DNA of 34,418 nucleotides from Candidatus Daviesbacteria bacterium RIFCSPLOWO2_01_FULL_37_10. GTDB taxonomy: Bacteria; Patescibacteriota; Microgenomatia; Daviesbacterales; UBA10151. Below are positions 30,144-34,418 of this stretch, piece after piece (within the stretch, counting starts at the first letter, position 1; every line of letters starts with the position of its first letter). The notes below the pieces were generated by a model, which was not told the origin of the DNA, ran no database searches, and worked only from the letters and a program-made list of their open reading frames with translations. Both the position numbers and the translations under genes were made by a program. The stretch covers positions 1 to 34,418 of the forward strand of contig MFDK01000005.1 in assembly GCA_001776865.1 (NCBI GenBank), given 5' to 3'.

Positions 30144-31001
30144 ATGAGTAAAGTTTCAGTTATTATACCCACATTTAATGAAGAAAATGTTATTGGAGAT
30201 TGTCTGGAAAGTTTGTCAAACCAAACATATAAAGATATAGAGGTTGTTACTGTGGATGATGGATCAGAAGACCATACAATAGATGTGATAAAAACATATC
30301 TCATATCTCATATCACTTATCACTTATACAAGCAGGCCCATAAAGGATCTGGAATAGCCAGAAATTTAGGGGCTAAAAATGCCAAGGGGGAAATTCTGGT
30401 TTTTGTAGACGCTGATATGACTTTTGACAAAAAATTCATACAGATGCTTATTAAACCGATTATTTCCGGAAAAGCAATTGGAACTTTCAGTAAAGATGAA
30501 TTTGTCTTAAATAATGAGAATGTATGGAGTAAATGCTGGAATATTAACAAAGGTTTGCCTTTATATAGAATGCACCCAAAAAAATATCCAAATGAACAAA
30601 AAGTTTTTAGGGCAATTCTAAAAAAAGAATTTGATAAAACCGGAGGATTTTCCCCAATAGGATATATAGATGATTATACTTTAGCTGAAAAGTTGGGAGT
30701 TAAAGCTGTGGTTGCTCCAAATGCTGTTTTTTATCACAGGAACCCCGAAACCTTAACTGAAGTTTTTAAACAGGCAAGATGGATAGGAAAGTCAGAATAC
30801 AAGAGGAGGAAAATCAAGAATGAACAGGTTATGAGGATTTTATCTCTAATTAGGTATTTATTACCTTTTACTCTAATACACTCATGTATTAGAGTATTGA
30901 AGTACAGGATTCTTAAGTATTTTATTTTTAAAATTGTTTATGATTTAGCAGTAGAAATATCTTTAATTAAATCTTTTTTTGGAGAACAAAAGTATAAATG
31001 A
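30144..31001 (+). CDS. GT2-family glycosyltransferase
   Basis: A 285-residue GT-A enzyme. SVIIPTFNEE (5-14), VDDGSEDHT (37-45) and FVDADMTF (87-94, DxD) are the standard GT2 motifs, and FDKTGGFSPIGYIDDYTLAEK holds the acceptor-side ED-like motif as DD. The C-terminal 60 residues are hydrophobic and basic and may lie along the membrane. Two odd DNA insertions lie in frame: heptamer tandem repeats encoding YLISHITYHLY (52-62), and a 12-bp hairpin encoding the TLIHSCIRV stretch. The reading frame is intact through both. The next gene begins at its stop codon (ATGA). The donor sugar is unknown. Confidence 0.88.
   Translation: MSKVSVIIPTFNEENVIGDCLESLSNQTYKDIEVVTVDDGSEDHTIDVIKTYLISHITYHLYKQAHKGSGIARNLGAKNAKGEILVFVDADMTFDKKFIQMLIKPIISGKAIGTFSKDEFVLNNENVWSKCWNINKGLPLYRMHPKKYPNEQKVFRAILKKEFDKTGGFSPIGYIDDYTLAEKLGVKAVVAPNAVFYHRNPETLTEVFKQARWIGKSEYKRRKIKNEQVMRILSLIRYLLPFTLIHSCIRVLKYRILKYFIFKIVYDLAVEISLIKSFFGEQKYK
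30295..30329 (+). repeat. Heptanucleotide tandem repeat inside the GT2 gene
   Basis: Five 7-nt units: CATATCT, CATATCT, CATATCA, CTTATCA, CTTATAC. They sit between the VDDGS region and the GSGIARNLGA helix, at a loop position, and keep the frame. The drift between units suggests an old expansion. Confidence 0.75.
30869..30896. repeat. Perfect 12-bp inverted repeat inside the GT2 gene
   Basis: TACTCTAATACA and TGTATTAGAGTA are exact reverse complements separated by CTCA. The element lies in the hydrophobic C-terminal part of the GT2 coding region, without a following T-run, so it is not a standard terminator. Confidence 0.8.
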
Positions 31002-32459: not shown

Positions 32460-33479
32460 ATGATTAAAGTTGGAATGGATATTTCGCAGATTGCGCACTT
32501 TGGAGGCGTTCCTGTTTACACCAGGGAACTTAGCTCAAATCTCCAGAAACAAAAAACTTTAGAGATGGTGTATTTTTTTTCATCTCTTAGAAGGACTTAT
32601 CATGGATCTCTTAAGGGTGTTAAGAAATTTAAACTTCCGCCTGCCCTTTTTGAAATGCTTTTTAACAGGTTGAGAAACGTTGGAATTGAACATTTTATTG
32701 GACCTATTGATATTTTTCACTCATCAGATTGGACTCAACCCCCAAGCAAAGCTAAAAAAGTTACAACTTATCATGATGTAGTTCCGCTAAAGTATCCGCA
32801 GTGGTCACATCCAAAGATTACTGCAGTACAAAGAAGACGTCTTAGAATTGTAGAATCCGAAATAGATATGGTTATTTGTGTAAGTGAGTCAACAAAAAAG
32901 GATTTACTCACAATTTCAAGGATTCCGAAAGAAAAAACAGTGGTTATTTATGAAGGGGTTAGTGAGATTTTTAAACCACAGGATATTAAAGTAATTAAGG
33001 ATTTTAAGAAAAGGTATGATCTACCGGAAGAATTTGTTTTGGCAATTGGAGGAGTCGGGGAGCGAAGAAATTTAAAAAGAGTTAAAGAAGCATCTAAAAA
33101 TTATAAACTAATAATATCCGGAATGGATATTCCCTGGGTTTCATACGAAGAACTTCCTCTTTTATACTCATCTGCCAGGGTTTTGTTTTATCCGAGCTTT
33201 TACGAAGGATTCGGGTTACCAATAATTGAGTCGATGGCCTCTGGAATACCAGTAATTACATCAAACGTTTCAAGCATGCCGGAGGCAGGAGGAGATGCAG
33301 CAATATATGTAAATCCTGAAGATGCGGGAGAAATGGAAGGTAAGTTAAAAGAAGTTATGGAAAATAAAAGTTTAAGAGAGGAACTGATTAAAAAGGGTTT
33401 TACCCAAGCCAAAAAATTCTCCTGGCAAAAATGCGCAGAAGAAACATCGGAGGTTTATAGGAGGCTTTTGGAACGATGA
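32460..33479 (+). CDS. GT4-family glycosyltransferase
   Basis: A 339-residue GT-B protein. The N-terminal loop GMDISQIAHFGGVPVY (5-20) is the Gly-rich acceptor-side motif. FHSSDWTQPP and TTYHDVVPLKYP match mannosyltransferase-like GT4 enzymes (WbaZ/WbdB group). The C-terminal lobe shows LAIGGVGERRN, YPSFYEGFGLPIIESMASGIPVI with an intact E-x7-E, and GGDAAIYVNP. It is slightly shorter than usual because the segment after the donor-lobe start is compact. It is followed directly by a related GT4 gene whose start overlaps its stop codon. Donor inferred only as a nucleotide sugar. Confidence 0.88.
   Translation: MIKVGMDISQIAHFGGVPVYTRELSSNLQKQKTLEMVYFFSSLRRTYHGSLKGVKKFKLPPALFEMLFNRLRNVGIEHFIGPIDIFHSSDWTQPPSKAKKVTTYHDVVPLKYPQWSHPKITAVQRRRLRIVESEIDMVICVSESTKKDLLTISRIPKEKTVVIYEGVSEIFKPQDIKVIKDFKKRYDLPEEFVLAIGGVGERRNLKRVKEASKNYKLIISGMDIPWVSYEELPLLYSSARVLFYPSFYEGFGLPIIESMASGIPVITSNVSSMPEAGGDAAIYVNPEDAGEMEGKLKEVMENKSLREELIKKGFTQAKKFSWQKCAEETSEVYRRLLER
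33459..33464 (+). promoter_or_regulatory. Shine-Dalgarno-like AGGAGG before the last GT4 gene
   Basis: AGGAGG lies 11 nt before ATG 33476, slightly long spacing, inside the end of the preceding GT4 gene. It supports the ATGA-overlap start. Confidence 0.5.
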
Positions 33480-34418
33480 ATATCTGGATAGATGGGAAAG
33501 AGGCAAATCAGCCTAACCGCGTTGGATCAGGACAGTTTGCATTTGAAGTAATTAGAAATCTTGAGAAATTGGATCATAAAAATGAATATACTATTTTACT
33601 ACCTTCTCTTACAATGGAAGATTTACCAAAAGAGCGTCCTGGATGGAATTATAAAATATTAAAACCAAATAAACTTTGGACAATAGTTACTCTTCCTTTG
33701 GCGCTATATTCTGCAAAAGTAAAACCTGATTTAATATTTTCCCCAACTCATTACATCCCGAGATTTTCTCCTGTAAAGCGGGTGGTAACTATTTTTGATT
33801 TAGCATATCTTCATTTTCCAGAGATGTTTACAAAAAAGGATTTGTGGCAGTTAACGAACTGGAGTAAATATTCAATAAAAAAAGCAGACCATATTATTAC
33901 AATTTCTAAATCTACTAAAAAAGATATTATGAAAAAATATAAAGTGAAAAGTAAAAAAATTACAGTTGCATATCCGGGATATGACAGAAAAAATTACAAA
34001 TTACAAATTACAAATTTCAAGTTAGAGAATATAAAGAAAAAATATGAAATATTGGGTGGCTACATTATATATATAGGGACAATACAGCCAAGGAAAAATC
34101 TTGTAAGGCTTATGGAGGCGTTTGCGCGGATCGTCCACCTCCGAGGTGAGACAAAGAGTACATCCGGATTACACCTCGGAGGTGGATTGCAGTTAGTCAT
34201 TGCTGGTAAGACTACTGGTCCAGGAAGGAAAGGCTGGAAATATGAAGATATTTTAAAAACACCTAAAATGTTAGGGATAGAGGATAAAATAATTTTTACC
34301 GGATTTGTTCCAGCGGAAGATTTGCCTGTTCTTTTGTATGGTGCTGAAGCATTTGTCCTTCCGTCTTTATGGGAGGGATTTGGGATACCGGTTTTAGAAG
34401 CTATGGCTTGTGGTGTTC
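33476..34418 (+). CDS. GT4-family glycosyltransferase (3' end beyond the window)
   Basis: 314 complete codons are present and the frame is open at the window edge, so the ORF track omitted it. The N-terminus has the Gly-rich GSGQFAFEV. FSPTHYIPRF and TIFDLAYLHFPEMF match mannosyltransferase-like GT4 enzymes; YIGTIQPRKNLVRLMEAF, FTGFVPAEDLPVLLYGA and PSLWEGFGIPVLEAMACG form the donor lobe with an intact E-x7-E. Two DNA insertions lie in frame: heptamer repeats (residues about 173-183) and a perfect palindromic element giving VHLRGETKSTSGLHLGGG (220-237) between EAFARI and LQLVIAGK, where relatives have a short loop. It starts at ATGA within the stop of the previous GT4 gene. Confidence 0.88.
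   Translation, partial: MNIWIDGKEANQPNRVGSGQFAFEVIRNLEKLDHKNEYTILLPSLTMEDLPKERPGWNYKILKPNKLWTIVTLPLALYSAKVKPDLIFSPTHYIPRFSPVKRVVTIFDLAYLHFPEMFTKKDLWQLTNWSKYSIKKADHIITISKSTKKDIMKKYKVKSKKITVAYPGYDRKNYKLQITNFKLENIKKKYEILGGYIIYIGTIQPRKNLVRLMEAFARIVHLRGETKSTSGLHLGGGLQLVIAGKTTGPGRKGWKYEDILKTPKMLGIEDKIIFTGFVPAEDLPVLLYGAEAFVLPSLWEGFGIPVLEAMACGV
33991..34025 (+). repeat. Heptanucleotide tandem repeat inside the last GT4 gene
   Basis: Units AAATTAC, AAATTAC, AAATTAC, AAATTTC and a diverged AAGTTAG. They encode the KNYKLQITNFKLEN stretch between the GT-B hinge and the donor lobe, with the frame kept. Confidence 0.75.
34134..34186. repeat. Perfect 15-bp inverted repeat element inserted in the last GT4 gene
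   Basis: TCCACCTCCGAGGTG (34134-34148) and CACCTCGGAGGTGGA (34172-34186) are exact reverse complements around a 23-nt spacer. Each arm is itself nearly palindromic (CACCTC-C-GAGGTG). The element is much more GC-rich than the gene around it and is translated in frame. Confidence 0.88.

Follow-up and report, generated by a model that had tools for sequence, protein, structure and literature searches.

A probable REPIN-like, RAYT-associated palindromic element in a glycosyltransferase gene of Candidatus Daviesbacteria

Among the described families of short palindromic repeats, two come close to the element reported here. In the REPIN/RAYT system, a short palindrome occurs as inverted doublets that form a hairpin, and RAYT genes are flanked by their own palindrome, which related genes tend to share (PMC3116915, PMC6006769). 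In E. coli, a CT dinucleotide is the cleavage site of the transposase TnpA-REP on single-stranded REP hairpins (PMC8266576). Rickettsia palindromic elements (RPEs) are protein-coding palindromes inserted in frame into many unrelated genes (PMC2229807, PMC10969869), and the title of Ogata 2002, as given in PMC10969869, calls such palindromes unique to Rickettsia.

The locus described here lies in a window of 34,418 nt, the whole stretch of DNA that was analysed, from Candidatus Daviesbacteria bacterium RIFCSPLOWO2_01_FULL_37_10 (contig MFDK01000005.1). It carries what is probably a non-autonomous, REPIN-like element, most likely spread by RAYT-type transposases and often present as an in-frame cassette of 51 bp. 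We know of no established account of how protein-coding palindromes move. A similar element in another phylum, the ends of which are shared with the flanks of RAYT-like genes, makes a mobilisation hypothesis directly testable.

The palindrome and its host gene

The palindrome consists of two 15-nt arms on the forward strand, the 5' arm TCCACCTCCGAGGTG (34134-34148) and the 3' arm CACCTCGGAGGTGGA (34172-34186), which are complementary at 15 of 15 positions and lie 23 nt apart. These arms have the top length among the perfect inverted repeats of the window with spacers of up to 70 nt, for which about 0.01 perfect 15-bp pairs are expected by chance. Their G+C content is 67% compared with 33% for the window, and the palindrome is predicted to fold as single-stranded DNA with -17.1 kcal/mol (z = -6.2). 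Each arm contains a 13-nt core, CACCTC-S-GAGGTG, that is in itself palindromic. The core of the 5' arm (34136-34148, CACCTC-C-GAGGTG) is a REP-like half-site that is repeated elsewhere in the host genome and is found beside RAYT-like genes in relatives; the core of the 3' arm (34172-34184, CACCTC-G-GAGGTG) is inverted relative to it. The initial annotation, which had described a GC-rich and perfectly symmetric element of 53 bp in AT-rich DNA with nested symmetry in each arm, was thus largely right, save that the symmetry extends over the arms and not over the asymmetric 23-nt centre AGACAAAGAGTACATCCGGATTA (34149-34171). The centre varies from copy to copy, with a mean identity of 44%. In the consensus, the 23-nt centres are quasi-palindromic (130 symmetric Watson-Crick pairs vs 90 in shuffled loops); a maintained symmetry was rejected, as there was no covariation (130 pairs vs 137 expected from column shuffles). 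A search of Rfam over 33000-34418 gave no match at gathering score.

The host gene (33476-34417, forward strand; PF00534, PF13439) encodes a GT4-type glycosyltransferase and is open at the window end; in the contig, its frame spans 394 codons from stop to stop. The element was correctly described as leaving this frame open. The in-frame insert HLRGETKSTSGLHLGGG comprises 51 nt (34136-34186) and corresponds to codons 221-237, so that about 17 residues are in the protein frame rather than the roughly 18 that had been proposed. An AlphaFold2 model of the protein has a mean pLDDT of 84.5 and shows the insert as a loop of low confidence (residues 228-235) between a helix (206-222) and a strand (239-243); the nearest matches in a fold search with this model are GT-B glycosyltransferases such as MshA (3c4q). 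This agrees with the suggested position in a helix-strand connection of the GT-B fold. In the alignment with homologues that had been proposed as a check, most orthologues from the family (60-67% identity) do not have these residues, and their site reads ARIENLQLVIVGK-like. The 51-nt block thus appears, judged by these alignments, to be an insertion into the GT4 gene, and the protein apparently bears 17 added residues if the insert is translated.

Further repeats were observed in the window. The same GT4 gene contains two 14-nt tandem units AAATTACAAATTAC at 33991-34018, another in-frame low-complexity repeat, and a glycosyltransferase-like ORF at 30144-31001 contains TYLISHITYHLYKQ, apparently a short insert derived from a repeat. 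Another palindromic repeat, GTCATGCTGAACTTGGTTCAGCATCTTATTAATAGATCCCGAAACGAGTTCGGGATGGC (1618-1678), coincides with the beginning of ORF 1620-2909, whose N-terminus LNLVQHLINRSRNEFGM it encodes; the true start of this ORF may lie downstream of the repeat.

Copies of the element and their association with RAYT-like genes

The host genome comprises 970 kb in 40 contigs, and genome-wide counts were obtained with search tools. Six exact copies were found, compared with none for a reversed control pattern. With a covariance model built from 28 copies, the host genome yields about 21 copies and G034, a relative from the same family, yields 20 (E<=0.01). Exact-arm copies are present in 11 of the 95 genomes searched, including the host; all 11 belong to the host's family, in which the number of exact copies per genome ranges from 0 to 18. 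The proposed search for arm pairs in the genome and its relatives thus revealed copies in both, in line with the suggested, putatively mobile or once-mobile small repeat. GTDB-wide, exact-arm copies are present in many Microgenomates genomes, with the host's own family, Daviesbacteria, in first place. By group, they come chiefly from Daviesbacteria, Curtissbacteria, Roizmanbacteria, Levybacteria, and Beckwithbacteria, and a few come from Omnitrophota. The matches on three Omnitrophota contigs (L022, L036, L052) have unrelated centres and reflect either distant transfer or convergent palindromes. Viral spread was considered and rejected because exact-arm copies are absent from viral_contigs.

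The half-sites occur mainly as inverted doublets. All 38 exact half-sites of G034 are explained as 19 doublets, and the 26 half-sites of the host genome comprise 18 in exact doublets, four with an altered partner, and four single ones. The spacer usually has 23 nt, with a subtype of 14-15 nt (AAAAAATGCnnTTA). Among 53 copies, 30 arm positions are altered in both arms with pairing kept and 13 are broken, compared with about 0.6 both-arm changes expected under independence, a ratio that is somewhat inflated since the copy-finding model favours pairs. Such paired changes could be explained either by fresh mobility or by hairpin-templated correction. On host contig C27 (L005, 1501-1549), one copy lies within another palindromic repeat (tcatcctgaaa..caggatcggaatgaca), and the elements may therefore nest.

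Most copies reside in coding sequence. Forty-five of the 57 distinct exact-arm copies are deep in ORFs (120 codons or more, with 20 or more to either side of the copy), a share that by itself does not prove a preference, since random insertions into a dense genome would also be mostly genic. All 20 covariance-model copies of G034 are inside ORFs and in frame; in the host genome, some copies lie between genes or at ORF ends. At least one open frame runs through each of the 57 copies, most of which each sit in a long open frame, and two main reading frames are used, yielding HLRGE..HLGG or TSEV..TSEV peptides. The length of the in-ORF copies is mostly 3n+1, to which the family usually adds two more bases. 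Host genes, named by eye from their translations, include TsaD, LepA-like, UvrD-like, and topoisomerase-like genes. What sets this distribution apart is the lack of disruptive copies and the small number of intergenic ones.

The host genome contains four Y1_Tnp genes, and 41 of 45 family genomes contain at least one. The palindrome CACCTC-S-GAGGTG was found on both sides of RAYT-like genes in Daviesbacteria (L077), in Curtissbacteria (L087), and in the Daviesbacteria family (L225), and the flanking palindrome of the latter, TCCACCTCSGAGGTGGA, equals the window arm. Ten RAYT-like genes have ACCTC-n-GAGGT in their flanks. Other RAYT-like genes have palindromes of the same build, such as AGGGTC-S-GACCCT or CACACC-S-GGTGTG, and variant copies of the element with CACCCC-S-GGGGTG match the palindrome of the RAYT-like genes L194, L221, and L227. 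Overall, 30 of 109 RAYT-like ORFs are flanked by matched palindromes, compared with 3 of 399 control ORFs. The palindrome tends to be common to related RAYT-like genes; the clustering of the CACCTC label among them was not significant against shuffles. The element's palindrome is absent from the flanks of all four Y1 genes in the host genome, and an active RAYT may have been lost, may be absent from the assembly, or may work without sites of its own; L009 falls within a clade of 27 rows to which six of the ten CACCTC-type genes belong. On host contig C11, a RAYT-like gene (L008, 1265-1939) lies between AGGGTC-S-GACCCT palindromes, with one more copy inside the gene.

The RAYT-like proteins have the HUH motif and the catalytic tyrosine expected of RAYTs. 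In an alignment of 26 sequences, the HxH and YxH motifs are invariant (H81/H83 and Y141 in L225 numbering), and TnpA-REP (4er8) is the first structure match both for the profile (E 0.0016) and for the L225 fold (E 5.5e-7). A phmmer search of the PDB with the single L077 protein gave nothing up to E = 1, so that 4er8 is reached by sequence only via the profile. With the NCBI REP_Tyr_transpos model, the proteins score 39.9-59.7 bits, below the cut-off of 80 bits. The link between these genes and the element is one of association; mobilisation by RAYTs is presumed.

Spread and persistence of the element

In the proposed mechanism, a 23-nt spacer separates two REP-like palindromes, CACCTC-S-GAGGTG, in inverted orientation, and the element would most likely be spread by a RAYT-type Y1/HUH transposase, with the palindrome recognised in its single-stranded hairpin form. 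The commonest copies would be 51-bp cassettes, made up of 49 bp and a 3' TA and placed after a CT dinucleotide; such a unit would keep the frame and add 17 residues, presumably without target duplication. When the flanks are oriented by the centre, CT precedes the copy in 17 of 39 cases (p 5e-11) and TA follows in 14 of 39 (p 5e-8); the window copy has neither flank. The 51-bp unit is deduced from these flank statistics and the frame because the orthologues are too diverged for exact junctions. Neither transposition events nor strain-level insertion polymorphisms were seen.

In other orthologues, the site in the GT4 gene is occupied by other repeats. In L104 and L109, the same loop contains a different element, GTCATCCTGGAG..CCAGAATGAC; L110 has a CACCTCGAAGG variant and L105 a relic, and a more distant homologue, L131, has a bigger GTCATTGCG..CGCAATGAC element. 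Likewise, in the t6A enzyme TsaD, seven of 30 genomes have one site free of inserts, and most of the rest carry an in-frame repeat there, from no fewer than five unrelated types; inserts are also present at a second TsaD site. In the Daviesbacteria TsaD loci L255-L284, the unrelated in-frame inserts lie in the loop between HFYANWI and FPCLGLLVSGGHT; they include tandem-unit hairpins and GTCATTGCGAG..CTCGCAATGAC elements. As far as can be judged from these alignments, tolerant surface loops serve as common landing pads for unrelated in-frame repeat families. The sites at which copies are observed seem to depend more on loop tolerance than on the element, and copies would survive when they land in such a loop, where they are presumably neutral for the host.

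This occupancy bears on the most serious alternative, according to which the copies are ancient, vertically inherited insertions that are now immobile and, at shared sites, are kept perfect by hairpin-templated repair of one arm from the other. The same sites are indeed filled across genera, in a GT4 paralogue (L129, L130, and the G034 fragment L035/L139), in an AspRS-like gene (L024/L025), and in a topoisomerase-like gene (L137/L146), and the covarying arms around centres diverged to 44% identity would fit such repair. Common descent need not follow from a common site, since unrelated repeat families occupy the same loops in sister species. Moreover, the frames at the TsaD site are not the same (phase 0 for L133, phase 2 for L155/L261), and genomes of the family have between 0 and 18 exact copies. 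Ancient insertion is considered unlikely, albeit well ahead of the following two readings. It is improbable that the element is a host-selected functional peptide or a regulatory hairpin, e.g. an intragenic mRNA stability or pausing signal. Its arms are much more conserved than its centres, and copies are present in several conserved genes (those named by eye above), which speaks for this reading; it is opposed by the patchy presence, with many orthologues having an empty site or other repeats, and possibly also by the third codon position of the centre, which lacks the relaxation typical of selected peptides. Bypass elements resemble, in outline, a strong hairpin with conserved ends, and by this analogy the element might be bypassed or spliced after transcription, leaving a protein without the residues. 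A skipped segment needs no frame, and the open frame in 57 of 57 exact-arm copies together with the usual length of 3n+1 plus two bases makes skipping the least probable of the readings.

Mobilisation by RAYTs, the preferred reading, allows a more tentative generalisation, which we regard as possible but somewhat doubtful: RAYT-driven REPINs of Patescibacteria might mainly inhabit coding sequence, as 51-bp in-frame cassettes, with surface loops of essential proteins hit repeatedly and unrelated families replacing one another. If true, RAYT-driven coding REPINs would provide a transposase-based route to protein-coding palindromes such as RPEs. The copies described here also show that genomes streamlined to about 1 Mb can bear repeated in-frame insertions in conserved enzymes, TsaD among them. 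This is relevant to the origin of new protein loops and to the reading of insertions in Patescibacteria proteins.

Comparison with known systems

With REPINs and RAYTs, the Daviesbacteria element shares the inverted doublets and the RAYT-like genes between copies of their palindrome. In contrast to the extragenic classical REPs, it lies mostly in ORFs (45 of 57; 20 of 20 in G034); it reaches about 20 copies per genome, each half-site is a short, nearly perfect palindrome with a single central base, and the corresponding RAYT-like proteins score under the NCBIfam cut-off. By eye, no GTAG-type tetranucleotide as in classical REPs was found at the foot of the palindrome, RAYT flanks included. The element behaves as a REPIN with its RAYT, yet it departs from the classical definition in its genic location and the missing GTAG. 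In the literature searched for RAYTs together with the candidate phyla radiation, no report of RAYT-linked elements in Patescibacteria was found, which does not prove their absence.

Dimers of GTAG/CGTC REPs located in ORFs and corresponding to 20-30 residues have been reported for Opitutus terrae and Rickettsia conorii (PMC3733652). These differ from the present element in palindrome sequence and host phylum, and the families are mostly intergenic, whereas the Daviesbacteria copies are mostly in ORFs. PARCELs (palindromic amphipathic repeat coding elements) are likewise protein-coding palindromic DNA that possibly spreads between genomes (PMC2996958); they form tandem repeats of 25 residues in ORFs of no assigned function, in contrast to the single inserts in conserved enzymes described here. 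The likeness to RPEs, which had been noticed from the window alone, holds for the behaviour as in-frame coding palindromes in unrelated genes. The published length of RPEs is 105-146 bp compared with 49-51 bp here, and the Daviesbacteria element has a candidate transposase tied to it by matching flanks. Because the same palindrome flanks RAYT-type transposase genes, a REPIN-like, RAYT-dependent element is a better description than the analogy to RPEs.
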